A DNA stretch of 32,286 nucleotides from Nitrospiria bacterium (GTDB lineage Bacteria > Nitrospirota > Nitrospiria > DASWJH01). A program made the translations under genes and the position numbers. Below are positions 4,601 through 25,225 of this stretch, in pieces. Under the pieces are notes generated by a model. That model did no database searches, was not told the origin of the DNA, and saw nothing but the letters and a program-made list of their open reading frames with translations. The DNA lies in contig DASWJH010000019.1 of assembly GCA_036397255.1 (NCBI GenBank), positions 1 to 32,286 of the forward strand, in the 5' to 3' direction. The stretch's first letter is position 1, and each line of letters begins with the position of its first letter.

Positions 4601-4611
4601 ATTTGGATTAG
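1603..4611 (+). CDS. Exported mosaic protein: haem c, two FnIII, BNR propeller, MopE-like motif, duplicated C-terminal domain
   Basis: The start is ATG 1603, overlapping the previous stop as ATGA; an upstream in-frame start at 1573 would give an implausible charged leader. The 1002 residues read in order: signal peptide (1-34); one haem c motif CNHCH (50-54); two fibronectin type III domains (about 137-226 and 234-324); a region with Asp-box/BNR repeats (STDGGTTW, STDQGANW, SEDGGQTW; about 330-665), probably a beta-propeller; an Asp-rich segment (about 669-708, NDCNGNDPTIYPGAIEIPDD then DGIDQDCDG) matching the MopE putative metal-binding pattern; and two tandem copies of a roughly 145-residue domain (about 717-1002) with RAQGPSLVDFGVSG and LPPGAYTAIVSG. 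That last domain is a secreted repeat type common in environmental bacteria. A terminator follows at 4679. The role is inferred to be surface-exposed redox or metal binding; the partner is unknown. Confidence 0.85.
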   Translation: MSYLLNNKRLLFFSVLIGSSFFLILGFPKLSLANHTAAGAFAEDPAIDGCNHCHNLTITGGNAGGSSRRAAFSPANGGGFDPHARRNSWSGTVSFMLSKGSPSSTAATAYLNTWYSLSTTCPSGTPEGQSCAFDPDPPTQPMNVISTPDVSGTRITLTWDPSTDNRAVTGYNIYRDLGGTPTGTSTTTTFLDSGLTPETTYTYEIEAFDAAGNLSPKSTPLNVTTAALPQDTDPPSQPDGVGGFTDTTGTKVFLFWNASTDNVGVTSYNIYRNGDPTPVGNNTTTTFLDSGIVPSTLYSYEIEAMDAADNFSPKSSPAFQIATSTGPIDVGLICDIPEGVTNFVVSPNFSNDGSIFVATGANRAYKCQFDGNNWNKTQIWPAGANPPPPFWTEVVEIGISPTYANDSTLFATTRYYFYKSTDGGTTWNGTSMACGITGWNTESVAVSPNFATDGVVWAGTWRDGSLQTDGAYLYKWYQQFFGLCWGIRIDLNGPDGSGFSSIAIDPNNANNVYAGVTGGGQEGVWGTTDGLNFGGAPVLSGLPVVDVTVASDGTVFAVGDSDLVYRSTDQGANWNSYTAADPGHSIQNIDASPSYSSDGNVLLCTSAAPGSGTHGLRKSEDGGQTWEGVAFHEGSCTDVHYHPNYPASPIAFASDTEGVYQILLATPVIDNDIDGWDSANDCNGNDPTIYPGAIEIPDDGIDQDCDGKDLSILPGGILTNISTRGFVGAGANVMIGGFIIEGGSPKTILIRAQGPSLVDFGVSGAMANPTMQLFSGSTVIAQNNDWQNTDPLCAAPVVSCGGSAEIITTGLDPCTAATTGCTLDSAIYVTLPPGAYTAIVSGVGGTGVGLVGVFEVSTGASILTNISTRGFVGTGANVQIAGFIIGGTDPKTLLVRAQGPSLVDFGVSGAMANPTMQLFSGSTVIAQNNDWQSTDPLCAAPTVSCGGSAEIIATGLDPCTAATTGCTLDSAIYVTLPPGAYTAIVSGVGGTGVGLVGVFDLD
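3751..4185 (+). repeat. 435-bp tandem repeat, copy 1 (in-frame domain duplication)
   Basis: Copy 1 of an in-frame 145-codon duplication inside the mosaic cytochrome gene. Against copy 2 (offset 435), the first roughly 105 bp differ at about 30 positions. Positions 3856 to about 3987 match at all but two. The remainder is about 90% identical. Confidence 0.93.
4186..4608 (+). repeat. 435-bp tandem repeat, copy 2
   Basis: Second copy of the 145-codon unit, ending at the stop codon of the gene. It encodes the same ILTNISTRGFVG start and AIVSGVGGTGVGLVGVF end as copy 1. The near-identical core lies at about 4291-4422. Confidence 0.93.
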
Positions 4612-4827: not shown

Positions 4828-6468
4828 ATGAACCTTAAATGGAAAAAATTTCTAAAAGGGGTTTTAATTATATTTTTTATGGGATTTGCTCAAACCGTTG
4901 TCGGAATGGAACCCCCACCAATAAGGGTAAAGAAGCTTTGTGGGCAGTGTCACTCCACGATGATTAACGATGATTGCATTTCAGGTCATTGCGATAAAAA
5001 ACCTTTAATCCATTCGGAGGCAAGGGATTGGCTTCAGTCAGTGGAATATATGGTTAGGGTGTTTGGCTGCAAAATGACCCCAGATGAACAAAAAAATGTT
5101 GTGGCTTATTTAGAAAAAAATTATCCTGGTAAGGTTTATCCTTTAACCTGGACGAAAGTGTTTACTGCGGATCAGAAAAGCGGATGGAATGTGGTCTCGT
5201 TAAAGGAATGGAAAGGCCATCTTTACATGGGAACCGAGGGAGGGGGGAGAATTTTTCGGTCTGGGAACGGTCTTGAATGGAAGGAAGTGGCGGCCACCGG
5301 CCACGATAAAGTTTATGGGCTGATTCCCTTTAAAGAGTATCTCTATGCGGGAACGTTTGATCCCGAACCACAAATTTGGAGGAGTTCCGATGGACAGACC
5401 TGGAAACAGGTAGGCCTTCTTCCCTTCCAACAAAAGGGGGTCACGGCATTTGGGGTTTTTAATGGGAATCTTTACGCGGGAACCGCTGCTTCTGAGATTT
5501 ACAGGTCAAAGGATGGTAAGGAATGGGAGCGGGTTGTTGCTTTAAAAAATAAGGTTCAGCCTTCCTGGTCCCTTTGGATCCGTTTCATAACTATATTTAA
5601 AGGGGTGATGTTTGTTGGGTTGGAAGGGGGGGAGATGTATTCCTCGGAAGACGGCCTATCCTGGTCCCAGGTTCTCCTTTCTTTAGATGGCGGAACCGGT
5701 CTAAGGGGTGCAGGAGTTTTTAATCAAGAACTTTTCGTGGGGACGACCAATACCGGAGAAATTTGGAATACCGGTGATGGAAAAAAGTGGAAAAAAGTTT
5801 TTTCCCCCGAGACTAAAAAAGGGTATGTGGCTTCTATGGTGGTTTTTAACCATGCTTTATATGCCAGTATCAATCGTTTGATTGTTCGTACAATGGACGG
5901 GTTGCATTGGGAAGAGGTGGGGGAAGTCGGATTTAAAACAGTTGAAGCCATGACCAATTTTAAAAATTTCCTGTATTTGGGAATCGATAGTCCACCGGAA
6001 GCTCAAATTTTTCGGACCTCGGGTCTTTCCCCTAGCCAGCGTTTAGTTCCTTTTGAGGAAGTAACCAAACTAGGATCGGTCCAGGGAAGTTTAAAGGATC
6101 TTCATACAGGGTTTTTTCTTTACCAAACCCTGGAGGAGAGTCCCATTGAGGAAACAAGCGGGTTGGATCATGTATGGAAATTTAGAAATCCGGGAGGAAA
6201 ACGCTTTCTCCTTGTGATTCGCGGATACCACCCAAAAACAACTGTGGGGGAGGAATTTGTTTTTTCCTATTCGGTGGATAATCGGGAATATAAAGAAATG
6301 TTTTCGCTCAAAGCTACCCGTGAAGATTGGAATTATCAGTTCTTTGAATTGCCTAAACTTCAAAAAGGCAACATTTTTATAAGGGTTAGAGATGCAAACA
6401 GAAACAATGAACCTCCCCTTAAAAATAAAATTTTAATAGATCACCTTTATATTTTAGTGGAAGGGTAA
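4828..6468 (+). CDS. Exported N-terminal cytochrome c plus Asp-box propeller protein
   Basis: This 546-residue protein has a signal peptide (1-26). A mono-haem cytochrome domain follows (about 30-103), with CGQCH at 38-42, then RDWLQSVEYM and MTPDEQKNVVAYLEKNYP. That second half matches the C-terminal cytochrome domains of the three propeller proteins downstream, here moved to the N-terminus. Residues about 108-400 hold six blade-like repeats of the form S-x-DG-x-x-W-x-x-V (RSSDGQTWKQV, RSKDGKEWERV, SSEDGLSWSQV), indicating a beta-propeller. The last 130 residues look like a beta-sandwich, perhaps a carbohydrate- or protein-binding module. Three extra cysteines (50, 55, 81) surround the haem domain. 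AAGG lies about 9 nt before the ATG, and a TATAAT box at 4769-4774 could be a -10 element. Confidence 0.82.
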   Translation: MNLKWKKFLKGVLIIFFMGFAQTVVGMEPPPIRVKKLCGQCHSTMINDDCISGHCDKKPLIHSEARDWLQSVEYMVRVFGCKMTPDEQKNVVAYLEKNYPGKVYPLTWTKVFTADQKSGWNVVSLKEWKGHLYMGTEGGGRIFRSGNGLEWKEVAATGHDKVYGLIPFKEYLYAGTFDPEPQIWRSSDGQTWKQVGLLPFQQKGVTAFGVFNGNLYAGTAASEIYRSKDGKEWERVVALKNKVQPSWSLWIRFITIFKGVMFVGLEGGEMYSSEDGLSWSQVLLSLDGGTGLRGAGVFNQELFVGTTNTGEIWNTGDGKKWKKVFSPETKKGYVASMVVFNHALYASINRLIVRTMDGLHWEEVGEVGFKTVEAMTNFKNFLYLGIDSPPEAQIFRTSGLSPSQRLVPFEEVTKLGSVQGSLKDLHTGFFLYQTLEESPIEETSGLDHVWKFRNPGGKRFLLVIRGYHPKTTVGEEFVFSYSVDNREYKEMFSLKATREDWNYQFFELPKLQKGNIFIRVRDANRNNEPPLKNKILIDHLYILVEG

Positions 6469-6529: not shown

Positions 6530-6586
6530 AAGTTTAAGGGAGTGTATGATTATTTAAAACCCTTTTAATTTTTGATCAGGTTTTTT

Positions 6587-8467
6587 ATGCCTTTTTTCTT
6601 TAAGCATTTTGGAAAAAGATTTTTTCAAGTAGCCATTTTTCTTTTAATAATCAATGGCGTTTATTCTTTTTCCTTTGGTTTTCCCTTGGTTAAGGATGGA
6701 AAAATTGATTTGGAGGTCCTTTCTCAGGTCCGTTCTATCATGGAAAACCGCTATGGGAAGGAATACGCTAGACTTTTTTTTAAAGCATTTGAAAAAACCC
6801 ATGAAACAGGGAAAGATCTGTTTCGTGTTATGCCCAACTGTTTTGTCAACCAAAGACTCATGCACTTTTCGGGAAATGCCCTTTCGATCACCTTTCGGCC
6901 TACGGAAACCAATACCTGCCGGTTTTGTCATCAACCGAATATAGATGGTGTATTCGATGATGCCTTTCGACAAAAAGTCTGGCCTCAAACCACCCATAAT
7001 ATTAATCCCTGGCTAAATGTTTTTGACCCCACTTGGCTGGACAGCATTGTTCCCCCGGCTTCAATTCCCACAAAGGTATCCGATTATATGGGGGTTGACA
7101 ATCTTGCTGAGGCTATTAAAAGAAGCGGATTGGATCTTAAAAACCCTATGGCTGATTTTCAAACCATCCAAAAAGGAAAGGGTCATGGGCCATTCAAGTA
7201 TTTTCCCGATCTAGATCCTTCAACCGTTAATCCCAGAAACGGATGGGCGAATAATGGGTGGCGGGCCTTTAAGTGGAAACCCTTGCCCTTTACCTATCCG
7301 GGAGCATTGGGGGGTTGGAAAGAAATTTTTATCCGGCTCCCATTGAGATTTCGGTTAGATGAAAACGGAACGTTGAGTCAAACCATTTATGATCGAAACC
7401 TTGAAAATGTGGAAAGGGCCATTAAGGGAGAGGACACTTCAAAATATTATCAAGGAAAAGCATCGGATCAAGAAATCCGAATATATCATTTTCCACAAGG
7501 GACCGAATTTATCTTGGCGATCTATTACCTTGACCCTATTTTTGGAAAAGCGGCTCGAATACAGGATTACCGGTATATGGTCAAGTCCGTTTCAGATGAA
7601 GATATTATGGTTTCCAAAAAAGAGGATTTAATTCTGGGGAGTCCCTCGGGGCTTCCAGATCCACAATCGGAATATGAAAAAACGTTGGAAAAAATTTCTG
7701 GAGGGCCCAAAAATCCCTACGGTGTAATTTATGCCCATGCGGGATGGGATTTGCTCTCTTTTCTGGAAGGGGATGTGGAATCCGGAAAATTGCGTCCCTC
7801 CATCCGGGAGGAAAACCAATTCTGCATCGGATGTCATAGCGCCAGTATCGGTGTGGTGAGAGATGGTGTTTGGAGTCTTCAAAGGAAACTTCCTGGACCC
7901 GAGGGATGGCAACTTCAGGATTTTAAGGGAATCAAGGATTATAAGAATCCTTTTTCTGAAAAAGGAGATTTTTATGAATGGATTACCGAGGCCAGAATGA
8001 GCAACCTTTCTTTATTTCCCTATGTTAACAACGATCAAATGGACCTTGTAGGGGGACTTCCCCTGGGAGGGCATGATCATGCTTTATTATTGTACCGGAA
8101 ATATTATCAAATTGTTAAAACCCAAACCCATATGTTGGGAAGGTTTCCCTCGGCCAGTACGGTTCCTCCAGTGGTTTTTGAAAAAGTGGTGAATCAACCC
8201 CATAAACCTTTAAGGGGTTCCCAAAACAGTTACGTGGTTTCGAAAAGGGTCACCGATCTTGATTTTTCCCATTGGCACACCGCTGAGGAGGCCCGGACCC
8301 TAAGTGAGAAGGAGATTGATAAAATCCTTGATCGAATGAGAAAAGGGGTTATTCAAGGAACCTATACGGCCTACCGCCGACAAGAATTGATAGAACGTTT
8401 GGAGGAAGCCAAGCGGGGACTTCGGCCTTCTTTACAGTCCATCGGGAAAAGTAAATTACAACCATGA
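6587..8467 (+). CDS. Large exported dihaem cytochrome c protein of unrecognised family
   Basis: I chose ATG 6587 (626 residues) because AGG lies 6 nt before it; an in-frame TTG at 6572 has no ribosome-binding site. A signal peptide covers about residues 1-31. Two haem c motifs are visible, CRFCH (111-115) and CIGCH (413-417), about 300 residues apart. The region between is rich in W, Y, P and N. That spacing is wider than in the classic dihaem peroxidases (CcpA/MauG type). Possible distal ligands include GGHDHALLLY and the FSHWHTAEEA segment near the C-terminus. The stop overlaps the start of the PD40 propeller gene (ATGA), which indicates co-translation. It could be the enzymatic member of the locus, but no catalytic family is recognised. 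Confidence 0.8.
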   Translation: MPFFFKHFGKRFFQVAIFLLIINGVYSFSFGFPLVKDGKIDLEVLSQVRSIMENRYGKEYARLFFKAFEKTHETGKDLFRVMPNCFVNQRLMHFSGNALSITFRPTETNTCRFCHQPNIDGVFDDAFRQKVWPQTTHNINPWLNVFDPTWLDSIVPPASIPTKVSDYMGVDNLAEAIKRSGLDLKNPMADFQTIQKGKGHGPFKYFPDLDPSTVNPRNGWANNGWRAFKWKPLPFTYPGALGGWKEIFIRLPLRFRLDENGTLSQTIYDRNLENVERAIKGEDTSKYYQGKASDQEIRIYHFPQGTEFILAIYYLDPIFGKAARIQDYRYMVKSVSDEDIMVSKKEDLILGSPSGLPDPQSEYEKTLEKISGGPKNPYGVIYAHAGWDLLSFLEGDVESGKLRPSIREENQFCIGCHSASIGVVRDGVWSLQRKLPGPEGWQLQDFKGIKDYKNPFSEKGDFYEWITEARMSNLSLFPYVNNDQMDLVGGLPLGGHDHALLLYRKYYQIVKTQTHMLGRFPSASTVPPVVFEKVVNQPHKPLRGSQNSYVVSKRVTDLDFSHWHTAEEARTLSEKEIDKILDRMRKGVIQGTYTAYRRQELIERLEEAKRGLRPSLQSIGKSKLQP

Positions 8468-9714
8468 AATGGTTTATTGGGGTCTTTTCTCTAATTGTTT
8501 TTTTTCTCCCTACAAGCAAGGTTTGTTCCGAGGTCGTCCAATTTCAGCAAATCTCTTTTACCACTTTGTGTGAGAACTTCCAGCCTTCCATCAGTGGAAA
8601 TGGAAAAAAAGTAGTTTTTCTTTCCGACTGTGACATTGTGTTGGGGTCTAACATTGACCAAAATTATGAGGTTTTTCTTTATGATTTGGATAAAAAGACT
8701 TTTTATCAGATCACAAAAACGGAAGGGCAGGGAAAAAATAACCAACCCAGCATCAATTATGATGGGAATTATGTAACTTTTAGGTCTTCCGCTGATCTTG
8801 TGCCAGAAAAAAATGCGGATGGAAACTCTGAGATTTTCCTGTATCACACAAACACTCATCATTTGGATCAAATCACCCATTCCATTTCTCCTTCAATCAA
8901 TAGTCATCCTATTATCAGTAAGAATGCCCGTTTTTTAGTTTTTCTCTCCTCCTCTAAATTAGGAGGCGAAGAGGAAGATCCTGAAAGCCCCCAAGTATTT
9001 ATCTATGAACGGGAGAGAAAAAGTTTTTCCCCATTAACCAACCCGGTTCTTTCTCCTTCCTTTGGGTCCCTAAAGAATCATCGTGAAACCCATCGGGTAG
9101 GGTTAAGCAAAGACGGGACAAAAGTTCTCATTGCGACTTCATTCCCCCATACCCAAGATGAGCCCTTAAAGAGGAGCAGGTTAAGTTTAACGTTATATGA
9201 TTTGAATACGAAAGAGGCCTTTTCAATAAACCCGCCTGAAAACTTGGGGAACTTTGGGCATATTCATTTCCCTCCCTCTTTGAACGGAGATGGGTCAAGG
9301 GGCGTTTTCCTGGTCAATCAGGGTCAACCCGTTTTGGATGAAAAGAAAGGAGGGGACCAAAAATTGTTTCTGGTTGAGATCGGCTCCTCAAAATGGGCCT
9401 CTTTGATTGAACCAAAGAATTGTCGTATCCATAACCCCAACCTTTCTGGGGATGGGAGCAAAGTCGGATTTTCATCCGATTGCGATTTTTTGGGGGAAAA
9501 TGAAGATTCCGGGCATCCCAATATGGAAATTTTCACCTTTAATACGAGAACCAAAAAGATAAGGCAGGTAACCCACACCATCCGGGATTTTAACCATACG
9601 CCATCCATGGATGACTCGGGTTCCAGAATGGCTTTCGGGTCCGACCGTGATATCCATGAGGGAAGTAACCTGGATGAAAATTCTGAAATCTTTATCGCCG
9701 TTTTTAATCCCTAA
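8464..9714 (+). CDS. Exported TolB/PD40-type seven-blade propeller protein
   Basis: This 416-residue protein has a signal peptide (1-22). Seven PD40-like repeats of the type P-S-[IL]-S-x-[DN]-G-x-x-V-x-F-x-S can be counted: QPSISGNGKKVVFLSD, QPSINYDGNYVTFRSS, HPIISKNARFLVFLSS, then versions with LSKDGTKVLIATS, LNGDGSRGVFLVN, LSGDGSKVGFSSD and MDDSGSRMAFGSD. This predicts a closed seven-blade propeller filling the whole mature protein. The family includes TolB, but no TolB N-terminal domain or pal/tolA context is present. No haem motif is visible. It overlaps the dihaem gene by 4 nt and is probably a binding or docking partner. Confidence 0.85.
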   Translation: MKWFIGVFSLIVFFLPTSKVCSEVVQFQQISFTTLCENFQPSISGNGKKVVFLSDCDIVLGSNIDQNYEVFLYDLDKKTFYQITKTEGQGKNNQPSINYDGNYVTFRSSADLVPEKNADGNSEIFLYHTNTHHLDQITHSISPSINSHPIISKNARFLVFLSSSKLGGEEEDPESPQVFIYERERKSFSPLTNPVLSPSFGSLKNHRETHRVGLSKDGTKVLIATSFPHTQDEPLKRSRLSLTLYDLNTKEAFSINPPENLGNFGHIHFPPSLNGDGSRGVFLVNQGQPVLDEKKGGDQKLFLVEIGSSKWASLIEPKNCRIHNPNLSGDGSKVGFSSDCDFLGENEDSGHPNMEIFTFNTRTKKIRQVTHTIRDFNHTPSMDDSGSRMAFGSDRDIHEGSNLDENSEIFIAVFNP

Positions 9715-9746
9715 ACAACAGTGGATTGGGTTTTAAAAAACCTTTA

Positions 9747-11069
9747 ATGAGCTATTCCGTTAAATCAAAAGAAGTATTAATCCTAACCTTTCTTGCGGCC
9801 TTTGTGGGGATTTCGGGGAGTTTTCATTTTTTGGCAGAGGCCAAGTCCGGATCTGAACGGGGAACCGGATTGGGGGCCTCCCAAATTGTGTTTGACCCCC
9901 AAAATCCCAAGAACATTTATGTATCCAGTACGTTTTACGGGGTCTATACAAGTAAAGATGAAGGGAAGACATGGGAACAGAAAATGAGGGGAATGGGAGC
10001 ATCTGATTATTACACCATTGCGGTTTATCCAAAAGATCCCCGAATTTTATTGATTGGGGCTGCAGGTGGTGGAATTTATAAAAGCAAGGATAGTGCCGAC
10101 ACCTGGGAGCCCGCAAACAATGGCCTAACGGATACGTCGGTCTATGATATTGTATTTGATCCGGTGGATTCCTCCATTGTGTATGCCCTTACCCTTCGGG
10201 AGATTTTTGTCAGTCAGAATCTGGGAAACTCGTGGGCCCCACTGTTCATAGAAAACCCCCGGGTAATGGACCCTACGTTTCATCGCCGCTTATTGATATA
10301 CCCCGGGAAAACCCGGCGTTTTGTGGTTGGGACCGGGGAGCATGGATACCAAAGGATGGAAGGGGGTAAAAAATGGGAATTGTTCGGGGATGACCTGAGC
10401 GGTTTAAGGGTGACTGCTTTCGGATCTTCTGCTTCTTTTAAAGAATTGTATATGGGAGCAAGACGGGGAGAAGGTTTATACCTTAGCAGGGATGGGGGAA
10501 AATCATGGGGTTTGATAGGGGACGGGTTAAAAGAGGTCTGGGTGAACCGCATTGCAGTTGACCCCTTTGACCCTCATATCATCTATCTGGCAACCAATAA
10601 TAAGGGAATGTTAAAAAGCAGTGATGAAGGGAAAACCTGGAAATCGATTAACAATGGGCTATCAGAGATCGGTGTTAAAGCTCTTGGCGTTCATCCAGAG
10701 ATAAAAGGATTTTTAATTATTGCCACCTATAATCAAGGGATTTTTACATCAGAAAATCAAGGGAAAAACTGGACCCATCGAAAGGTTCCCGGATTCCCTA
10801 CCTGGGATCAGTTGAGGGGATCTTTAACCCGAAACCCCCCGTCTAAAGAGGTACCCCCTCCACCCACTTCTTTTTCCAAATGTCAAACTTGCCACGCATG
10901 GACGGATCCCATTTTAAACGGGCAAAAAAATCAAACCTTTTGGCGGACTTTTCCTTCCAGGCGGGATTGGACTGCGACCCTGGAGCGAATGAAAACCACG
11001 GCCCAGCTGTCGGCCTCTGAAGAAATTGAGATTTTGGACTATTTGAATACGTATTATGGTTTGAAATAA
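9747..11069 (+). CDS. Propeller-cytochrome fusion A (BNR propeller plus C-terminal haem c)
   Basis: ATG 9747 gives 440 residues and a normal signal peptide (about 1-33); an in-frame TTG at 9726 is also possible, and neither has a strong ribosome-binding site. Residues about 40-360 contain six Asp-box motifs (SKDEGKTW, SKDSADTW, SQNLGNSW, SRDGGKSW, SSDEGKTW, SENQGKNW), as in sortilin- or YCF48-type propellers. A proline-rich linker leads to a 62-residue cytochrome domain with CQTCH (379-383), the shared HAWTDPIL stretch, RRDWTATLERM and a closing EIEILDYLNTYYG helix. The Met in ERM is a candidate sixth haem ligand. It is full-length homologous to the genes at 12516 and 13880. Confidence 0.87.
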   Translation: MSYSVKSKEVLILTFLAAFVGISGSFHFLAEAKSGSERGTGLGASQIVFDPQNPKNIYVSSTFYGVYTSKDEGKTWEQKMRGMGASDYYTIAVYPKDPRILLIGAAGGGIYKSKDSADTWEPANNGLTDTSVYDIVFDPVDSSIVYALTLREIFVSQNLGNSWAPLFIENPRVMDPTFHRRLLIYPGKTRRFVVGTGEHGYQRMEGGKKWELFGDDLSGLRVTAFGSSASFKELYMGARRGEGLYLSRDGGKSWGLIGDGLKEVWVNRIAVDPFDPHIIYLATNNKGMLKSSDEGKTWKSINNGLSEIGVKALGVHPEIKGFLIIATYNQGIFTSENQGKNWTHRKVPGFPTWDQLRGSLTRNPPSKEVPPPPTSFSKCQTCHAWTDPILNGQKNQTFWRTFPSRRDWTATLERMKTTAQLSASEEIEILDYLNTYYGLK

Positions 11070-11166
11070 ACGTTTTTTTTTGAAATTTCCAATAATTCGG
11101 TGGAAGTTTTTATGAAAAAACCGGAGTCAAAAAATCTTTATAGAACTATTTTGTTTTCACAATGTA

Positions 11167-11195
11167 TTGACTTACCCCCTTTTGGTTTTTATATT
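11167..11195 (+). promoter_or_regulatory. Strong-looking sigma70-type promoter
   Basis: TTGACT (11167-11172), a 17-bp spacer and TATATT (11190-11195) form a good promoter in the gap after fusion A. The expected start of transcription (about 11202) falls at the ATG of the FG-GAP gene, which would make the message leaderless. The TTG of the -35 box is also an in-frame alternative start codon. Confidence 0.5.
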
Positions 11196-11202
11196 TAGAG
11201 CC

Positions 11203-12519
11203 ATGGGATGGCTTAAGAAATACAATCATTGCTCTGTTTATTTCCTCCTTTTTTCGGTTTTTTTCTTTACAAACGTTACTTTAAGCTGGGGATATCCACT
11301 TTGGGAGAAGAACCGGTCGGATATGCCAGTTTTTAAAGACAAAAGATGTTTTCCGACCAATCTAGTTGCAACGGATCTCAATGGGGATGGATTAGCGGAT
11401 TTGGCGGTTACAGGGTTTTGTAATCGGTTTGCGGTTTTTTTCTCTGATCCCAAAAATCCGGGAAATTTTAAACCCCCAAAAGAAATTAAGGTTCCCACAT
11501 CGGCCATCGGAATGGCCGTATTTCATTCGGAGGGAAGCCGATTTCCGTTTATTGTCGTTTCCAATTGTGCCAATCCTGATTCAATCCCTCAAAAACCACT
11601 TCTCCATATCGTATCGATGGAAACCTTTAAAGTAATTAATACCATGCCATCGGGAGGAAAGGCCCCTGATGATATTGCCATTGCAGATTTTAACGGAGAT
11701 GGATTGAACGATTTTGCCGTGGGCCATTGGAAAGAAGGCGTCCTATCAGTTTTATTAGGGAAAAAAAAGGGAGGAGGGTTTATCTCTCCCCAAAAAAACT
11801 CTCCCCAATATATATCTATCGGGGATGAGCATTGGCAAGTGGAAGCTCGGGATTTTGATAATGACCAGAAAATGGATATTGCTTCAGTGGTATGGACTTT
11901 TAAAAACGGGGAGGCTAGAAAAGCCGATCTTTTAATCCTCCCTGGTAATGGGAAGGGAGGGTTTTCGTCTTCCCGTGCTAAAACCTTTCCATTGGATCGT
12001 GAGGCCAGATCTTTTTCGGTTGCCGATTTCGACCGTGATGGGTTTGAAGACATTGCGGTGGCCAATCCCGGGTCCGGTTTAAAAGGGGATGGTAGCATCT
12101 CCTTCCTTTTTGGAAAGAAAGGTGGACATTTTGATCACCGTTTATTTCCTCCCCTTGCTCGTAAAGAATCGGACATAGGGGGAGCCACCGGAGGTCTCTT
12201 GGCTCCACAAGGGATTGCCACCGCTGACCTGGACGGGGATGGGGCCTTTGACCTTGTTACGGCAAGCCGGCCGGTGAATCAGAACGGGCGGGTAATTATT
12301 TTGTACAACAACGGAAAGGGGGATTTTTCTTTTGCCAGATCCCAGATTCTCCAACTTGGACGAAAGGAAATTGTTTCCAATTTAAGTTTTGAACCTTTAA
12401 TTATCACCGATCTTAACCAAGATGGCGCTCCTGATATTGCCGTAGCGAACACCAATGCCAATACCGTTTCCATTTTTTTTAATCCTTTGGTTAAAAAAGA
12501 AGAAGGTATCAACCGTTGA
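11203..12519 (+). CDS. Exported FG-GAP/VCBS repeat protein
   Basis: I prefer ATG 11203 (438 residues); an in-frame TTG at 11167 lies in a promoter-like element. A signal peptide covers about residues 1-30. At least six calcium-binding FG-GAP loops of the D-x-[ND]-x-DG-x-x-D type are visible: DLNGDGLADLAV, DFNGDGLNDFAV, DFDNDQKMDIAS, DFDRDGFEDIAV, DLDGDGAFDLVT and DLNQDGAPDIAV. They are regularly spaced, as expected for an integrin-alpha-like propeller. There is no haem motif. It sits between propeller-cytochrome copies A and B and overlaps B by 4 nt. The probable role is a calcium-stabilised extracellular binding scaffold. Confidence 0.87.
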   Translation: MGWLKKYNHCSVYFLLFSVFFFTNVTLSWGYPLWEKNRSDMPVFKDKRCFPTNLVATDLNGDGLADLAVTGFCNRFAVFFSDPKNPGNFKPPKEIKVPTSAIGMAVFHSEGSRFPFIVVSNCANPDSIPQKPLLHIVSMETFKVINTMPSGGKAPDDIAIADFNGDGLNDFAVGHWKEGVLSVLLGKKKGGGFISPQKNSPQYISIGDEHWQVEARDFDNDQKMDIASVVWTFKNGEARKADLLILPGNGKGGFSSSRAKTFPLDREARSFSVADFDRDGFEDIAVANPGSGLKGDGSISFLFGKKGGHFDHRLFPPLARKESDIGGATGGLLAPQGIATADLDGDGAFDLVTASRPVNQNGRVIILYNNGKGDFSFARSQILQLGRKEIVSNLSFEPLIITDLNQDGAPDIAVANTNANTVSIFFNPLVKKEEGINR

Positions 12520-13883
12520 AAAAAATTTCCTCAAAAAAAATGGTGGTTTTATTGAGTGTGTTTTTAATCTTGGTGGTGGTTAGCCTATTAATTTTAGTGG
12601 GTCTTCCCGGATTTACATCCATTCTCGAACCATTACGGGCCGCCCTTCATCGAAGGATGGCCAGGGAGCCCCTTCAGATTTCTCAAATCGTTATCAATTA
12701 TAAAAATCCAGAAATTGTTTACGCATCCAGCCATTTTTATGGGATGTGGAAAAGTACTGACGGGGGAAAAACATGGAAGCTGGCTATTAATGGGCTTGGA
12801 ACTTCAGATGTCTATTCAATGGCCATTCATCCCCGAAAGCCCGAAATTCTTTTTGCTGCCACGCCGGGTGGGGGGATTTATCGAAGTGCGGATAGCGGAT
12901 CCAATTGGGTGGAGGTCAGTGAGGGACTGACGGATACCCATATGGAAGACGTGGTTTTTGATCCCATTGATCCCGATATCATGTATGCAGCCACTCTGAG
13001 AGAGGTCTTTAAAAGTGAAAACGGGGGTTTGTCGTGGAAACCGGCTTTTAAGAAAAACCGGAAAGTCGCCCCCGAATTCTATGTTCGAAATCTCCTTGTA
13101 TTGCGCTCTTCTCCTTCGGCGAAATCCGTATTTTTAATGGGGACACCTAATGGAGGTTACAGAAGGATAGAGGGAGGCTCCGAATGGGAGCCGCTTAGGG
13201 AAAAGGTGGATGGGGCTAAATTGACGGCTTTTGCATATGACCCAAGAATAAAGACATTGTATGGAGGGGCGATTTCGGGAAAAGGGATTTATAAAAGCAC
13301 AGATGAAGGAAATTCATGGAACCTGATGGAAACTCCTCCCATGCGCTGGGTTCATCGCATCGTATTAAATCCCCGTAATCCCATGAACATTTTCATTGGG
13401 ACCCGCGCAAAGGGTGTATTTAGAAGTTCCGATGGGGGGCGGACCTGGGAGGAAAAGAATAACGGTCTTACCCATAATGTGATAAAGGGTCTTGCCATTG
13501 ACCCGACCAACCCATTGAAGCTCTATGCAGGAACCCCAGGTATGATTGCCACCTCCAAGGATGGGGGAGAGTCCTGGCGTCTTGTCCAAATGGACCCACC
13601 CAGTTATCATGCAGTGGTGAGTTTCCTGATCCCTATTCAAAAAGCTTCACAAAATATACCTTCCCCTCCGCTGGTTTGGAAAGAAAAATGTAATGAATGT
13701 CATGGTTGGACTGATCCCGTCCTGAATTATTATCCCACCTCTTATTGGAGAATTTCTCCAACCCCCCGTGATTGGAAAGAGACCATGGACCGGATGGCTG
13801 GTAAGGGAAGAAATCCCATGACACCGGAAGAAAAAGCCTCCATTTATGGTTACCTCAATAATTTCTTTGGTCCAAGATCGTGA
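12516..13883 (+). CDS. Propeller-cytochrome fusion B
   Basis: TTG 12516 overlaps the upstream stop (TTGA) and has AGAAGG about 9 nt before it; ATG 12540 is the alternative. The 455 residues start with a long hydrophobic segment (about 10-32) without an obvious cleavage site, so it may be a membrane anchor rather than a cleaved signal. Six Asp boxes follow (STDGGKTW, SADSGSNW, SENGGLSW, STDEGNSW, SSDGGRTW, SKDGGESW). A proline-containing linker precedes the C-terminal cytochrome: CNECH (392-396), HGWTDPVL, PTPRDWKETMDRM and a final helix. It is homologous to copies A and C along its length. It overlaps copy C by 4 nt. Confidence 0.87.
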   Translation: MKKISSKKMVVLLSVFLILVVVSLLILVGLPGFTSILEPLRAALHRRMAREPLQISQIVINYKNPEIVYASSHFYGMWKSTDGGKTWKLAINGLGTSDVYSMAIHPRKPEILFAATPGGGIYRSADSGSNWVEVSEGLTDTHMEDVVFDPIDPDIMYAATLREVFKSENGGLSWKPAFKKNRKVAPEFYVRNLLVLRSSPSAKSVFLMGTPNGGYRRIEGGSEWEPLREKVDGAKLTAFAYDPRIKTLYGGAISGKGIYKSTDEGNSWNLMETPPMRWVHRIVLNPRNPMNIFIGTRAKGVFRSSDGGRTWEEKNNGLTHNVIKGLAIDPTNPLKLYAGTPGMIATSKDGGESWRLVQMDPPSYHAVVSFLIPIQKASQNIPSPPLVWKEKCNECHGWTDPVLNYYPTSYWRISPTPRDWKETMDRMAGKGRNPMTPEEKASIYGYLNNFFGPRS

Positions 13884-15202
13884 AGATATTCTATGCTGCC
13901 TGGCTGGTCTGTTCAATAGTGGTATTTTCTATTGTAGCGGCCGAAGAAAAAAAGGAAATTCTGCCTTTTATTCATAACAGTGGCATTATTGTCCATCCTG
14001 AAAATTCGTCGGTTGTGTATGCATCGTTTTGGATTTATGGGGTATACAAGAGTACCGATTTTGGACAGACCTGGACCTCCATGAACCGAGGGTTTAAAAA
14101 TCCAAGTGTATATACAATGAAAATGGACCCTCTCAACCCAGAGGTTTTAATGGCGGGAACCCATGCAGGCGGAATTTATAGGACCAATAACGGGGGGAAG
14201 AGTTGGTTTGAAATTAACACCGGACTTACCAATACAACCATTTTGGATTTGGTGTTTGATCTTAAAGACTCAAAACGGATCTATGCTTTGACCAGCCTTG
14301 GACTTTTCTTGAGTGAAAATGGAGGGGACCAATGGGGTTTGCTTCCGGGGGGCATCCCCGGCCCGGTCCCCGATCAGCAAATGACCCTTTTAATGGTTCC
14401 TCCAAATAGATCCCGGCCCGGGTTTCTTTTGCTTCAGAATGGAGGGAATCTTTTTCGAAGGCAGGGAGATTTTTCGTTGGAAAAGGGTTTCTCTTCTTTT
14501 TGGTCCAAACCTTTACTGAAAGAGGTTACGCGAGTTAGAGCCCTGCCTTTGGCCTACGATTCAAAAACTGGTACCCTTTATTCTGGAACACGAAAGGGTT
14601 TTATGAAGAGTTTAAATGATGGAAAAACATGGAATCCTCTTTCGCCGGAAATTACAAATGCCAATTGGCTTGTGGTCCACCCCAAAAAGCCCGAGTTTCT
14701 CTACCTTGGAACCGATGGGAAAGGGATGTTTAAAACGGTTGACGGGGGAAATCATTATCAAGCCATTAATAAGGGAATTGAGGGTCCAACCAGCAGGAAA
14801 ATCTTTGGGTTGGCCATCGACCCCAAAAATGGGGAACGCCTCTATGCAGCCTCTCATTCCATCGGCCTTTTTATAACCCAAAACGGAGGAGAGCGGTGGC
14901 GTTCCCCAAAGGATTTTCCAATTCCCGGCCTCTCTTATATTTCTGCCCAATCGAAGGAGTATGTGATCAAAGCAAAGACCCAGGCCCAGCCTCCTCCTCC
15001 GGATTTTAAGATTCATTGCAATGGGTGTCATGGGTGGACGGACCCGGCACTGGATTTTAAAAATAGGGCGGTTTGGCGGGCGGCCCCCACCCCAAGAGAT
15101 TGGAAAAACACAGTTGATCGAATGGGTACCCTTGCCGGTATTCAGGATCCCCAAAAAAAAGTGATTACCCTATACCTCAATACCCAATTTGGTATTCCTT
15201 AG
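13880..15202 (+). CDS. Propeller-cytochrome fusion C
   Basis: GTG 13880 overlaps the stop of copy B (GTGA), giving a 440-residue protein with a signal peptide (about 1-21). Asp boxes are recognisable at six positions but are more degenerate than in A and B (STDFGQTW, TNNGGKSW, SENGGDQW, SLNDGKTW, TVDGGNHY, TQNGGERW). The C-terminal 61 residues form the cytochrome domain: CNGCH (380-384), HGWTDPALD, PTPRDWKNTVDRM and ITLYLNTQFG. It is the last gene of the locus. Its stop lies 17 nt before the right inverted-repeat arm, and no clear terminator follows. Confidence 0.87.
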   Translation: MKIFYAAWLVCSIVVFSIVAAEEKKEILPFIHNSGIIVHPENSSVVYASFWIYGVYKSTDFGQTWTSMNRGFKNPSVYTMKMDPLNPEVLMAGTHAGGIYRTNNGGKSWFEINTGLTNTTILDLVFDLKDSKRIYALTSLGLFLSENGGDQWGLLPGGIPGPVPDQQMTLLMVPPNRSRPGFLLLQNGGNLFRRQGDFSLEKGFSSFWSKPLLKEVTRVRALPLAYDSKTGTLYSGTRKGFMKSLNDGKTWNPLSPEITNANWLVVHPKKPEFLYLGTDGKGMFKTVDGGNHYQAINKGIEGPTSRKIFGLAIDPKNGERLYAASHSIGLFITQNGGERWRSPKDFPIPGLSYISAQSKEYVIKAKTQAQPPPPDFKIHCNGCHGWTDPALDFKNRAVWRAAPTPRDWKNTVDRMGTLAGIQDPQKKVITLYLNTQFGIP

Positions 15203-16266: not shown

Positions 16267-16671
16267 TTAGTTTGTACCTTCCTTTTTCCCAATCTTTTTT
16301 TGGGGTTCTGCCTCTTTCTGGCCAACCATCTCCACAATCGCCATTCGGGCAGCGTCTCCAAACCTTTGCCTGGTTTTAATGATTCGGGTATATCCTCCAT
16401 TTCGGGAAGAAAATCTTGGAGAAATTTCATTAAAAAGTTTTGAAATTACCTGTCGGTCACTCACATATTTCAAAACCAACCTCCTCGCGTTCAAGTCGCC
16501 CCGCTTTCCTAATGTAATCATCCGCTCGGCTAATGGCCGGAACTCTTTGGCTTTTGCTTCGGTGGTTTCAATTTTCTCATGAGCAAGAAACGATGTTAAA
16601 AGGCTCCTAAGGAGAGCCCTCCTGTGGGAGGAATTCCGCCCTAATTGGCGTCCTGCTTTCCGATGTCTCAC
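16267..16671 (-). CDS. rplQ: 50S ribosomal protein L17
   Basis: L17 sits at the exit of the large-subunit peptide tunnel. The 134 residues begin with the signature [20 protein letters not shown] and include the usual [16 protein letters not shown] segment. A charged C-terminal tail ([16 protein letters not shown]) makes it slightly longer than the commonest forms. The start is GTG with AGGGA about 8 nt upstream. It is the last gene of the ribosomal cluster, 23 nt after rpoA, and no hairpin terminator is evident in the 42 bp before the convergent gene. Confidence 0.97.
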
Positions 16672-16694
16672 GAAATCATTCCCTTTCTAATTTT

Positions 16695-17705
16695 TTATTC
16701 ACTGGGTTCATCTTCTTTCTCATTATCCACCCCCTTGGAGACGGATTCAAGCTTCATTCCCAATGACAAACCCATTTCCGATAGTATTTCTTTAATTTCA
16801 TTTAGGGACTTTCGGCCGAAATTTTTTGTTTTTAACATTTCATTCTCGGAACGATTAACCAGATCAGAAATGGTTTTAATATTTGCATTCTTTAAGCAAT
16901 TTGCTGCGCGGACGGAAAGTTCCAGTTCATTTACACTTCTTAAGAGATTCTTATTAAATTTTTCTTTAACATCATCCAGTTTGGGTTCAATGAGTTCTGC
17001 AGTTTCCTCAAAGTTTATAAACAACGCGAGATGATCTTTTAAAATTTTTGCTGCAAAAGCAAGGGCATCATCGGGCCTTACACTGCCATCGGTCCAAATT
17101 TCGAGGATGAGTTTATCGTAATCGGTTACACGACCGACCCTCGCATTTTCAACATAAAAGTTGATTCTTTTTATAGGAGAAAAGATAGAATCCACAGGAA
17201 TGGTTCCAATAGACATGCCCTCCTCTTTGTTCCTTTCAGCGGGAACATACCCCCGACCAATTTTTACATTCATTTCAACGTTTAAACTGCTGTCTTTGTC
17301 TAAAGTTGCAATAGGGAGATCAGGTGTTAAGATTTCTACATCTGCATCATGAATGATATCTTTGGCTCTAACCTCACAGGGTCCATTTTTCTTTAAATAG
17401 ATTGTCTTTGGTCGGTCTGAATGTAGTTTAACCCTAAGACTTTTTAGGTTAAGAATGATATCAGTAATATCTTCCTTTACCCCCGGAAGGGTTGAGAATT
17501 CATGAAGAACCCCTTCAATTTTAATTGAAGTTATTGCCGCCCCCGCAATGGATGACAAAAGAACCCTCCGAAGGGAATTTCCAACGGTGGTCCCAAAACC
17601 CCGTTCAAAGGGCTCGGCAAAAAACTTCCCATAAGTATTCGTTATTTCACTGGTTTCAAAATCGAGTTTTTTAGGAATTTGAAAATCTTTTGTTCTTATA
17701 ATCAT
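16695..17705 (-). CDS. rpoA: DNA-directed RNA polymerase subunit alpha
   Basis: This subunit dimerises to scaffold RNA polymerase assembly and reads UP elements through its C-terminal domain. The 336 residues show the assembly motif [20 protein letters not shown] (about 32-51) and [21 protein letters not shown]. The alpha-CTD has [19 protein letters not shown] and a helix-hairpin-helix at [19 protein letters not shown] precedes the ATG by 6 nt. The last 20 residues are acidic and variable. It lies between rpsD and rplQ, the standard alpha-operon position. Confidence 0.99.
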
Positions 17706-17779
17706 ACATTTCCCCCATTAATAAGGAAAGGTTAAAGGCCATCAGTTTAGGGTTTAATTTTTAAACGCAGAATAAACCT

Positions 17780-18406
17780 TTATCGGGAATATAATTCAAC
17801 AACCAATTGTTCGTTCACCGGAAGCTCGATCTCTTCTTTGGAAGGTACATTTAAAAATAGGCCTGAAAATTCAGTTTTATTAAGTTCAAGCCATGGGGAA
17901 ATTCCCCTATTTTCTACCCCCAACAAAGAAGCCTTTATTCTTTCCAAATTTTTACTTTTCTCCTTTACTTGAATCCGATCACCCTCTTTTAAAAGAAAAG
18001 AAGGGATATCCACTTTTTTCCCATTCACCAAAAAATGCCCATGGTTAATTAAACCCCGAGCCTCTCCTCGTGAGGAAGCAAAACCGATTCGGTAAACTGC
18101 ACTATCCAGGCGTCGTTCTAATAACTGGAGGAGATTATCTCCTGTAATTCCCTTTATTCGCTCGGCACGGTGAAAATACCCTCGAAATTGCCTCTCCAGC
18201 AATCCGTAAATTCTCTTTAACTTTTGTTTTTCTCTGAGCTGCTTCTGGTATTCCGAAACCTTCTGGCGTCCTTGTCCATGTTGCCCTGGGGGTTGATCTC
18301 GACGTTCAATCCCACACTTCTCGGTGAAACACCGCGCCCCTTTTAAAAAAAGCTTTGCCCCTTCCCTCCGGCAGAGCCGGCATAGGGGTCCAACGTATCT
18401 TGCCAA
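17780..18406 (-). CDS. rpsD: 30S ribosomal protein S4, zinc-binding form
   Basis: S4 is a primary 16S rRNA binder that nucleates the small-subunit body, and in some bacteria represses the alpha operon. The 208 residues begin with CRLC (9-12) plus C26 and C31, the cysteine set of the zinc-containing S4 form. The S4 RNA-binding domain is at [20 protein letters not shown] and [18 protein letters not shown]. The start is TTG, supported by GGAGG 6 nt upstream. It sits 73 nt after rpsK. Confidence 0.98.
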
Positions 18407-18479
18407 TTAAAACCTCCATTCCATATAATTTATTTTTTCCGTTTAAATGCCCTACTCAAAAAAGAGTTAAAGGTCATGC

Positions 18480-18866
18480 TTAGACCCTCCTCCTTTTGGG
18501 GGGTCTGCACCCGTTATGAGGAACCGGGGTAACATCTTTAATTAAATTAACCTTCAAACCGGTCCCTTGAAGAGCCCTAATAGCGGATTCGCGCCCCGAC
18601 CCGGGCCCCTTAACATAAACATCCACTTGCCTCATTCCATTTTCCATGGCCTTTTTTGCAGCAGTTTCCCCAGCCTTCTGGGCGGCAAAGGGGGTACTTT
18701 TGCGTGATCCTTTAAACCCTTGATTGCCTGCACTGGACCAAACCACCACATTTCCAGCCATATCTGTAATGCTAATTATCGTGTTATTAAAGGAAGCCAG
18801 TATATGAGCCACACCGGATTGAACATTCTTTTTTTCTTTTTTCTTAGTACCTTTTTTATTTACCAT
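18480..18866 (-). CDS. rpsK: 30S ribosomal protein S11
   Basis: S11 forms part of the small-subunit platform beside the mRNA exit. The 128 residues carry [18 protein letters not shown], the [18 protein letters not shown] block and the C-terminal [18 protein letters not shown] tail. A lysine-rich 15-residue leader ([11 protein letters not shown]) precedes the conserved core. GGAG lies about 10 nt before the ATG. The 125-bp gap to rpsM is the second longest in the cluster and has only a weak AT palindrome. Confidence 0.98.
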
Positions 18867-18991
18867 GGTTTTGCAACTCCAATTGTGATCAAGGATAAAA
18901 CCTACTAAATTTATTTAGTTTTTTGTTTTGCCTGATCCCTCTTATTTAGAATGAACCCTTTCTTTAAAAAGAGGGGGAAATCAGAAATTCC

Positions 18992-19366
18992 TTACGTTTT
19001 TTTGGGTTTTGCTCCAATTGCTCGACGAGGCCCTTTTCTTGTCCGTGCATTGGTTTTCGTTCTTTGGCCTCTCAATGGAAGACCCCGACGATGCCTTAAT
19101 CCCCGGTAACTCCCAATATCCATTAAACGTTTAATACTCATGGAAATCTCTCGCCGAAGATCTCCCTCTATTTTAAAATCCCGTTCAATGATTTCACGGA
19201 GTTTTACTGCTTCAGCTTCACTCAAATTCTTTACCCGAGTATTGGGATCAACCCCGGCATTTTTTATTATTTTTTTGGATGAGGACGGGCCAATTCCAAA
19301 TAAATACGTCAATCCAACCTCAACCCTTTTATCTCTAGGAAGATCTATTCCACCGATACGAGCCAT
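18992..19366 (-). CDS. rpsM: 30S ribosomal protein S13
   Basis: S13 lies in the small-subunit head and contacts the P-site tRNA and the inter-subunit bridges. The 124 residues start [20 protein letters not shown] and contain [13 protein letters not shown] and the C-terminal [20 protein letters not shown] motif. A lysine-rich tail ([10 protein letters not shown]) follows. It follows rpmJ by 18 nt, as in the standard infA-rpmJ-rpsM order. Confidence 0.98.
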
Positions 19367-19384
19367 TGAAACCTCATTAAGAAA

Positions 19385-19498
19385 CTAACCTTGCCGTTGT
19401 TTATGTTTCGGGTTAATACAAATCACCCGCAACACCCCTCGTCTTTTAATAATCTTACATTTAGCACAAATGGTTTTCATTGAAGATCGAACTTTCAT
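19385..19498 (-). CDS. rpmJ: 50S ribosomal protein L36, zinc-ribbon form
   Basis: This 37-residue gene reads [20 protein letters not shown] and ends [10 protein letters not shown] with a TAG stop. C11, C14, C27 and H32 form the zinc ribbon of the metal-containing L36 type. It lies in the conserved slot between infA (43 nt upstream) and rpsM (18 nt downstream). L36 stabilises the 23S rRNA core near the L7/L12 stalk base. Confidence 0.97.
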
Positions 19499-19541
19499 TG
19501 TCCTAAAACCACCTTTTCCTTTTAAAGAAAAACGTCAGTGT

Positions 19542-19760
19542 TTATTTAAAACGGTAGGTAATTCTCCCCCGTGTTAAATCATAGGGAGAAAGCTCCACTG
19601 TTACTTTATCTCCCGGTAAAATTTTTATAAAATGCATTCTCATTTTTCCTGAAATGTGGGCTAACACCCTATGCCCATTTTCCAATTCCACCCGAAACAT
19701 CGCATTGGGTAATGTTTCCATGATTGTTCCTTCCACTTCAACAACATCTTCTTTGGACAT
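19542..19760 (-). CDS. infA: Translation initiation factor IF-1
   Basis: IF-1 is a single S1-type OB fold that occupies the ribosomal A site during initiation. The 72 residues match the usual size, beginning [20 protein letters not shown] and including [19 protein letters not shown] and a closing [12 protein letters not shown]. It follows map by 12 nt and precedes rpmJ, as in many bacterial spc/alpha junctions. Confidence 0.98.
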
Positions 19761-19772
19761 ACCCCCTCGATC

Positions 19773-20519
19773 CTAAATCTCTGTTAAAATCTTGGCCCCA
19801 AACTCCGTCAAAGCAATGGTATGCTCAAAATGGGCAGACAAACTTCCATCTTCGGTGACCACAGTCCATTGGTCTTCCAAAACCTTAACATGATAAGTCC
19901 CTGCATTCACCATGGGTTCTACAGCTAACACCATTCCGATTTTTAACCGAGGTCCGGAATCTGGTTTTCCAAAATTAGGAACCTGGGGTTCCTCATGAAG
20001 GCTTCTTCCAATCCCATGGCCAACAAAATCCCTCACCACGGAAAAACCAGATTTTTCCACACAGGTTTGTATTGCATGGGAAACATCCGAAAGCCTTCCC
20101 TCATTGCGAATTTGCTGGATCCCTTCGTAAAGAGATTGACGGGTAACATCCATTAACCGCTGAACCTCCTGATTGACCCCGCCTACCGGAAGGGTCATGG
20201 CTGAATCACCAAAATATCCCTCCCAAATGGCCCCCAAGTCTAATCCAATAATATCACCGTCTTTTAATACACGTCTCGATGGAATCCCATGAACCACTTG
20301 ATCATTGACCGAGACACAGAGCGTAGAAGGAAAACCACGGTAACCCTTAAAGGCTGGTGTACCTCCTAAATTTTTAATTTTCTCTTCGGCCACCCTATCC
20401 AGATCTAGGGTGGTCACACCGGGGGCTACCATTTCCTTAAGGGTAAGCAGAACCTCTGCAACTATTTTTGATGCAGAAGTCATCTTTTCAATCTCGTCAC
20501 CCGATTTCAGAATGATCAT
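19773..20519 (-). CDS. map: Methionine aminopeptidase, type I
   Basis: This enzyme removes the N-terminal methionine from nascent proteins in the cytoplasm. The 248 residues contain the full dimetal site at positions equivalent to the E. coli enzyme: D94, D105, H168, E201 and E232, plus the substrate-binding H78. Motifs include VNDQVVHGIP, GDIIGLDLGA and FVGHGIGRSLHEEPQVPNFG. There is no N-terminal extension, so it is the short type Ia form. The ATG overlaps the adk stop by 4 nt, so the two are probably co-translated. Confidence 0.98.
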   Translation of the reverse strand: MIILKSGDEIEKMTSASKIVAEVLLTLKEMVAPGVTTLDLDRVAEEKIKNLGGTPAFKGYRGFPSTLCVSVNDQVVHGIPSRRVLKDGDIIGLDLGAIWEGYFGDSAMTLPVGGVNQEVQRLMDVTRQSLYEGIQQIRNEGRLSDVSHAIQTCVEKSGFSVVRDFVGHGIGRSLHEEPQVPNFGKPDSGPRLKIGMVLAVEPMVNAGTYHVKVLEDQWTVVTEDGSLSAHFEHTIALTEFGAKILTEI

Positions 20520-21169
20520 ACTTTTTTCTTTGATAGAAACCCCAAAACATTTTGGAAAACCGTCGGGATATCTCCGGAGCTTTCAATTTCAGTTAAAAGG
20601 CCAAGCTTCTGATAAAAATGAACCAACGGTTGGGTTTGGGTTTTATACACCTGCAATCGTTTCTGTATGGTTTCGGGATGATCATCTTCCCGATGAATCA
20701 ATGGCCCCCCGCAAAGATCGCAACGATTTTCTTCCTTGGGGGGATTATATTTTGTGTGGTATACCGCAGTACAGGTTGAACAGGATCTACGGCCCGAAAG
20801 TCGTTGGATTAAAATCTCTTCATCTAAAACAAAATGAACCACCCGATCCAACCCCCATCCAAACCCCAACAACATTTTGGACAATGCCTCTGCTTGAGGA
20901 ACTGTCCTCGGGAAACCATCTAAAAGGAAGCCCTTTTGGCTATCAGGCTTTTTTAAGCGGTCCCGGATTATTCCAATAACCACCTCATCCGGAACCAGAG
21001 CCCCCCGTTCCATATAGGACTTGGCTTCTTTCCCTAACGGGGTTTTCTCCCTAACCGCTTCCCTTAAAATATCTCCGGTTGAAATTTTCAAAACTCCAAA
21101 ATGTTCTGATAGATTCTGAGCTTGGGTCCCTTTTCCAATTCCAGGAGGTCCCAACAAAACCAACCTCAA
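20516..21169 (-). CDS. adk: Adenylate kinase with zinc-binding LID
   Basis: Adk interconverts ATP plus AMP with two ADP. The 217 residues begin MRLVLLGPPGIGKGTQA, whose GPPGIGKGT is the P-loop. The NMP-binding ISTGDILREAV and the FLLDGFPRTVPQAEAL motif follow. The LID carries CSTC-X16-CDLC, a four-cysteine zinc site. The start is TTG, fixed by a strong AGGAGG 6 nt upstream. It lies 119 bp downstream of secY, where a new ribosome-binding site but no clear promoter is seen. Confidence 0.98.
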   Translation of the reverse strand: MRLVLLGPPGIGKGTQAQNLSEHFGVLKISTGDILREAVREKTPLGKEAKSYMERGALVPDEVVIGIIRDRLKKPDSQKGFLLDGFPRTVPQAEALSKMLLGFGWGLDRVVHFVLDEEILIQRLSGRRSCSTCTAVYHTKYNPPKEENRCDLCGGPLIHREDDHPETIQKRLQVYKTQTQPLVHFYQKLGLLTEIESSGDIPTVFQNVLGFLSKKKV

Positions 21170-21288
21170 ATCAAACCTCCTTTAGGAAAACTCAAACAAA
21201 CCCCAATTAGGTCTACCGAAGCTAAACCCTCCCCTAAAATTGCGTTGGTTTTCTTTCTCAGCATAATATTCCGATCATAGAAAAATCC

Positions 21289-22602: not shown

Positions 22603-22603
22603 C

Positions 22604-23047
22604 CTAAATCACCTCTGCCTTGCCACCTACCGATATAATTTTCTCTTTTGCCTTTTCGCTAAAAGCATTGGCTTGAATCGTCAAAGGAACCTTTAATTCA
22701 CCCTCAGATAAAATCTTTATAGGGCTTCTCGCTTTACTTACCAACCCTTTTTCTTTAAGAAGTCCAATATTTACAACTGTGTTTTTTTGGAACCCATTCA
22801 ATTGTTCCAAATTGATAATCTGGAATTTCTTTTTAAAAATATTGACAAACCCCCTTTTAGGTAATCTCCGGCTGAGGGGCATTTGGCCCCCTTCAAAACC
22901 AGGACCCTTCACTCCACCCGAGCGGGCCTTCTGCCCTTTATGTCCTTTTGATGCGGTTTTCCCAGAACCCGAACCTGGCCCCCGGCCAACACGCCTTTTG
23001 GGCTTCTTCTTCGCCCCCCTTGAAGTTTTGAGGGAATTTAATTTCAT
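22604..23047 (-). CDS. rplO: 50S ribosomal protein L15
   Basis: L15 is a late-assembling protein of the large subunit. The 147 residues open with the glycine- and lysine-rich RNA-binding tail ([20 protein letters not shown] and [11 protein letters not shown]), then [17 protein letters not shown]. The C-terminal domain ends [18 protein letters not shown]. It follows rpmD by 41 nt and almost abuts secY. Confidence 0.98.
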
Positions 23048-23088
23048 TTTTTTTTGGTCCTCTTCCTTCGTTAATCCTTGTATTTAAA

Positions 23089-23789: not shown

Positions 23790-23846
23790 AATCCCTCCTA
23801 TTGCAAATCAAACTTTTGGCGATATAAATTTTAGTTTTGGAAAACA

Positions 23847-24206: not shown

Positions 24207-24232
24207 CCCTGGCCTCACCTCACTTGAGCGCT

Positions 24233-24772: not shown

Positions 24773-24790
24773 AACGAATAAATCAGTCCT

Positions 24791-25192: not shown

Positions 25193-25225
25193 AGCATTTC
25201 CCCCACAAAGCAAACCCTCCCACTA

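Follow-up and report, generated by a model that had tools for sequence, protein, structure and literature searches.

The window analysed here, a stretch of 32,286 nucleotides from a Nitrospiria bacterium, carries three related genes whose products were predicted to join a beta-propeller to a C-terminal mono-haem cytochrome, and the question raised by this locus is whether these products are subunits of one assembly, as the original prediction also suggested, and what such an assembly might do. All three open reading frames were confirmed, with the domains and motifs that had been proposed: each encodes a putatively exported protein with a hydrophobic N-terminus and an Asp-box propeller of about 310 residues, followed directly by a proline-rich linker and a haem tail of about 65 amino acids, and the tails share CxxCH-[AG]-WTDP, RDW and RM motifs. 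For copy 1 the start was placed at the ATG at 9747; the mechanical ORF start is a TTG at 9726. The locus extends beyond positions 9747-15202, with the genes at 1573 and 4828 bearing homologous N-terminal haem domains, and a gene for an FG-GAP propeller (11167-12519), absent from the original prediction, sits between copies 1 and 2. The genes and domains are:

490 to 1215, + strand: GspC/T2SSC-like exported protein, a remote match (NCBIfam GspC_delta, E=9e-6)
1573 to 4611, + strand: NcytIg-type protein with an N-terminal mono-haem domain (CNHCH, RNSW, M), fn3, an Asp-box stretch and a MopE-type metal-binding motif (Pfam, haem-domain alignment)
4828 to 6468, + strand: NcytB-type protein with an N-terminal mono-haem domain, a propeller and an extra C-terminal domain (family of 10 sequences, alignment A7)
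6572 to 8467, + strand: unnamed 631-aa exported protein with two CxxCH (ortholog at the same place in genome G016)
8464 to 9714, + strand: haem-free TolB/PD40-type propeller (Pfam PD40, E=2e-9; syntenic ortholog in G016)
9747 to 11069, + strand: Asp-box propeller-cytochrome copy 1 (Pfam Sortilin-Vps10, E = 8e-27)
10863 to 11066, + strand: mono-haem tail of copy 1 (CQTCH at 10881)
11167 to 12519, + strand: haem-free FG-GAP propeller (Pfam FG-GAP_3, E=6e-33; its G016 ortholog is fused to the copy 1 ortholog)
12516 to 13883, + strand: Asp-box propeller-cytochrome copy 2 (Pfam Sortilin-Vps10, E = 1.7e-21; AF2 model)
13674 to 13877, + strand: mono-haem tail of copy 2 (CNECH at 13689)
13880 to 15202, + strand: Asp-box propeller-cytochrome copy 3 (Pfam Sortilin-Vps10, E = 1.3e-17)
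14996 to 15199, + strand: mono-haem tail of copy 3 (CNGCH at 15017)

Because three gene pairs overlap by 4 bp (6572/8464, 11167/12516 and 12516/13880), the window genes likely form one operon-like transcription unit.

Six Asp boxes had been predicted for each propeller, and six matches to the pattern S/T-x-D/N-x-G-x-x-W/F/Y were indeed found in copies 2 and 3; copy 1 has five. The number of blades is most likely seven, since seven conserved tryptophans recur at a spacing of 43-50 residues (positions 87, 131, 174, 224, 268, 311 and 354 of ORF 12516), six of them near Asp boxes and the fourth blade lacking a canonical one. Searches of Pfam with copies 1-3 returned Sortilin-Vps10, BNR and PSII_BNR repeats for the propellers and only sub-threshold cytochrome matches for the tails. 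The description as sortilin-like thus holds as a Pfam label and no further: membership in Sortilin/Vps10 proper was rejected, as these proteins have seven blade tryptophans versus a 10-bladed propeller and lack the 10CC module. The AF2 model of copy 2, in which the pLDDT of the propeller is mostly above 90, found its best single-propeller structural relatives in the photosystem II assembly factor Ycf48, also a seven-bladed Asp-box propeller (TM-score up to 0.73 by Ycf48 length), and its best E-value in GH74 propellers, which are of the seven-bladed Asp-box kind with two propellers per chain, versus one here. Membership in Ycf48 was rejected by domain searches, structure comparison and conservation, and a GH74 glycosidase was rejected on the single propeller per chain and on the conserved acidic residues of the propeller, which lie only in Asp boxes. 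Neither Ycf48 nor GH74 proteins are known to carry a c-type haem domain.

In an alignment of 38 copies, the CxxCH, the Trp of RxW and the Met of RM were invariant in 37 or 38 copies, and the Met, the only invariant tail residue that is a candidate distal ligand, was kept in 38 of 38. The haem tail is the most conserved part, ahead of the propeller loops; in the propeller, conservation falls mostly on Gly, Trp and Asp-box residues, which are structural, and no conserved polar active site was found there. Such a pattern is what one would expect of a scaffold that holds an electron-carrying haem, more than of a propeller with an enzyme pocket. Modeling of the copy 2 tail alone by AF2 (pLDDT 77, pTM 0.66) yielded three helices, namely a helix ending in CxxCH (residues 12-21, with the motif at 17-21), a helix ending at Met and a C-terminal helix, which is the order of class I cytochrome c, and the putative distal Met lies before the C-terminal helix in both the sequence and the model. 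Foldseek recognised no solved cytochrome with the tail model, so it is the sequence profiles and the order of the helices that point to a cytochrome fold.

The proposal that these proteins do not belong to a named family was borne out, as neither Pfam nor NCBIfam contains a family covering the architecture, giving only generic Asp-box and sub-threshold cytochrome matches, and no paper describing it was found in the literature. The nearest named relative of the tail, as judged by profile comparison, is haem domain I of the alpha subunit of quinohaemoprotein amine dehydrogenase (QHNDH; TIGR03908, Pfam PF09098), which the tail profile matches across the CxxCH, WR, W..T..RM and the final YL helix. 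The tails reach 10-15 bits against an equivalog cut-off of 274 bits over the full length and are not members of that family; unlike QHNDH alpha, the tail proteins lack QHNDH beta-domains, have a propeller in cis and contain one haem per domain. A weak match of the same kind to SorB, the mono-haem cytochrome of sulfite dehydrogenase (NF052246), was obtained for 16 of 27 tails, and the full window proteins, at 10-19 bits versus a cut-off of 93 bits, are not members of this family either.

Alignment of the five haem domains of the window revealed invariant C, C, H, W, M, Y and L residues. Profile-profile comparison gave a probability of 97.4% (E 1.5e-11) for NcytB versus the tails, 95.7% for the NcytIg haem domain (gene 1573) and, as the third figure among the three types, 94.4%, indicating that the tail, NcytB and NcytIg haem domains are homologous. 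The NcytB haem domains (window 4894-5150) contain two more invariant cysteines, as C-x4-C after the CxxCH, which likely form a disulfide.

The tail-profile search that had been recommended in the original prediction was carried out on the genome of origin and on a sample of other genomes, mostly draft assemblies. In the genome of origin, a degenerate DNA pattern of the tail matched the three window sites and one site on contig C93 (reversed control, 0 matches), and a profile of these four sequences recovered the window copies at about E = 1e-36, far beyond chance, and added a fifth, so that two further copies lie outside the window, both on C93. The profile matched 12 of 58 class relatives at E up to 0.01, mostly strongly and often several times per genome. 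Tails were found in 10/197 genomes of the class, belonging to families f1, f4, f5, f6 and f7, and in 7/396 genomes of the phylum, all within the same class (Nitrospiria). None of 41 genomes of other phyla that bear related propellers contained a tail, and the one match in 297 genomes of another phylum (titled Acidobacteria) was to a true QHNDH alpha (E = 6.4e-7). One scan of genome contigs, in which the Asp-box pattern dominated, returned only propeller relatives without haem tails.

In genomes of the sister family f2, the target sites of two Nitrospira FISH probes, Ntspa662 and Ntspa712, lie about 50 bases from each other, a spacing that agrees with the numbers of the probes and points to Nitrospiria as the class; the sequence of Ntspa662 was confirmed in the literature, and that used for Ntspa712 is presumably the probe sequence. 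The sampled f2 genomes lack the tail at an E-value of 1e-6, with one weak match in G030 (E 8e-4), and for this reason nitrite oxidation, known from Nitrospira, is an unlikely explanation for the tail.

The 38-sequence tree paired window copies 1, 2 and 3 with three different copies of G016, a genome from another family of the same class, with support values of 100/99, 99/94 and 100/100, and the orthologous trio stands in the same order in both genomes. A simple local triplication, as originally envisaged, is not compatible with this pairing, which indicates that the triplication is old and predates the split between the tail-carrying lineages of families f1 and f6. The remaining copies form four groups, designated alpha, beta, gamma and delta. 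Separate trees of propellers and tails, a comparison which had also been recommended, gave the same picture for the window type, the gamma group and two of the three pairs. With its roughly 65 columns the tail alignment did not separate alpha from beta, and an assembly gap truncates one G016 tail. No swapping of tails between propellers was seen in those parts of the tree that the short tail could resolve.

Fifteen loci from tail-positive genomes were examined, with domain types marked by profile. Cassettes recur in 10 genomes from five families and are composed of tail proteins, NcytB, haem-free propellers of the VWQD, FG-GAP or PD40 type, and a large surface-type protein with an N-terminal haem. 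The core order is a tail protein (beta), NcytB, a VWQD propeller and a tail protein (alpha) at loci L119, L121, L123 and L124, with variants at L125, L127 and L129; in a second arrangement, NcytIg lies beside one or two tail proteins (L124, L126 and L128). A beta copy directly precedes NcytB in all eight loci where this can be read, a ninth beta copy being at a contig end. The G016 locus (L118) mirrors the window, with NcytB, the 631-aa protein, PD40, copy 1 fused to FG-GAP, copy 2 and copy 3. The copy number and order of paralogues differ between cassettes.

Three natural gene fusions were identified. At L119:6101-8671 a tail protein and NcytB are encoded in one frame, with profile matches about 10 bases apart; at L117:984-4787, in the genome from which the window comes, a VWQD propeller, a tail protein and NcytB are joined; and at L118:7341-9875 the copy 1 ortholog is fused to FG-GAP. 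In the L119 and L117 fusions two haem domains come in succession, first the one at the C-terminus of the tail protein and then the one at the N-terminus of NcytB. Both the fusions and the conserved neighbours back the prediction that the proteins are subunits of one assembly.

Propeller-cytochrome fusion as such is already known in enzymes. In cytochrome cd1 and quinohaemoprotein alcohol dehydrogenases, a c-type cytochrome domain shares the chain with a beta-propeller, which is eight-bladed and binds haem d1 or PQQ; no Pfam matches of either kind were found in copies 1-3. What is new in the present proteins is that the partner is an Asp-box propeller, that one kind of haem domain stands at the N-terminus of some propellers and at the C-terminus of others, that the cassettes are conserved and that neighbouring genes are naturally fused.

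On the basis of these fusions, cassettes and homologies we consider it about an even chance that the conserved cassette to which the three genes belong encodes an exported assembly for electron transfer. In such an assembly the proteins would be moved through the inner membrane and acquire haem c on its far side; the propellers, given the structural nature of their conserved residues, may act as scaffolds or docking discs that bind one another or a surface; and the small haems, with putative His/Met ligation, might come near enough for electrons to pass from module to module. The clearest haem-to-haem step would be that between the beta copy, whose haem is C-terminal, and NcytB, whose haem is N-terminal; these two haem domains are successive in two fusions. 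The array would then be a multi-haem conductor made of mono-haem modules, connecting a pool of electrons in the periplasm to a donor or acceptor located at the outer membrane or outside it. We put forward only tentatively the more specific proposal of an undescribed extracellular or periplasmic electron conduit, built from interchangeable propeller discs with one N- or C-terminal haem each, in which a wire of mono-haem modules replaces a multi-haem cytochrome and which is confined to lineages of the class other than the Nitrospira family, with several paralogue sets in parallel.

It is conceivable, though again somewhat doubtful, that the cassette encodes a soluble oxidoreductase complex like hydrazine synthase (HZS) or QHNDH, with one catalytic subunit (in the window, 6572-8467), structural haem-free propellers, and propeller-cytochromes that carry electrons to or from the catalytic subunit; with the 631-aa protein as an enzyme, the array would be its electron relay and not a conductor. 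The plan of HZS comprises a propeller with haem, a haem-free seven-bladed propeller and a di-haem subunit (PMC12758564). The part inventory of the window cassette resembles this mix, and both the QHNDH-alpha-like haem domain and the position of gene 6572, kept between NcytB and PD40 in G016, point in the same direction. However, HZS alpha has a six-bladed propeller with its own haem sites, unlike the window proteins, no HZS chains were among the PDB matches of 12516, 6572 and 4828, and neither the 6572 product nor the propellers matched HZS or a notable solved oxidoreductase in sequence. The 6572 product has no Pfam family above threshold and no solved relative, and is 64% identical to its G016 ortholog (L118:4260-6131); its other relatives, at about 25% identity, occur only on Pseudoalteromonas megaplasmids, in an uninformative gene context, and the gene was seen only in window-type cassettes (the genome of origin and L118), the other cassettes being without it. 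The lack of a conserved polar active site in the propeller also argues against an enzyme of this kind.

A role in binding or adhesion at the cell surface, to carbohydrate, mineral or protein, with a haem that serves as a sensor of redox state or of O2/NO, or does no more than stabilise the fold, would agree with the common binding of sugars or peptides by Asp-box propellers, with GH74 and Ycf48 as the best structural matches, and with the fn3/Ig-like repeats and MopE motif of the NcytIg proteins. We regard it as unlikely, as conservation peaks in the haem tail and not in the propeller loops, the two successive haem domains of the fusions favour electron transfer, and the Met, found in every copy, would make the haem six-coordinate, as predicted for electron transfer and not for sensing. 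That the paralogues merely expanded side by side with no joint function is very improbable: their variable copy number and order would be expected, but the orthologous trio that two families share in conserved order, three fusions between neighbours and the constant beta-NcytB adjacency speak against it. An electron-transfer assembly is thus the preferred reading, ahead of a relay that serves an enzyme, for instance the 631-aa protein, and ahead of surface binding or sensing.

Should the parts indeed form one assembly, uncultured relatives of Nitrospira would possess a machine for respiratory or extracellular electron transfer, whose proteins are likely hidden in annotation under labels such as 'sialidase', 'sortilin' or 'Ycf48-like'. 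The natural fusions indicate which subunits probably touch, which makes the idea directly testable.

The neighbourhood of the cassettes was also inspected. No donor, acceptor or outer-membrane porin gene was constant across the cassettes examined. GspC-like proteins are encoded near cassettes at four loci (window 490-1215, L121:6626-7267, L123:3637-4434 and L129:3881-4657), and a profile of the L121, L123 and L129 relatives matched the window protein at E=3e-7 in a small search set. These neighbours hint at type II secretion, perhaps through a dedicated link, and secretion beyond the periplasm is possible; GspD was above cut-off in 10 of 11 genomes and is too common for a specific link. In G009 (L181), NcytB and NcytIg (6633-7919 and 8023-11973) occur without any tail protein and adjoin genes for a beta-barrel-like protein and an RND-like transporter; the NcytB gene, suspected to be broken, proved intact. 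In G010 (L129:15744-18737), one open frame near the cassette encodes a cbb3-type oxidase that combines COX1, FixO and cytochrome c domains. In the window itself, a ribosomal protein operon with rpoA, secY, adk and map (- strand, 16267-32000) adjoins the cassette at the other end of the contig.
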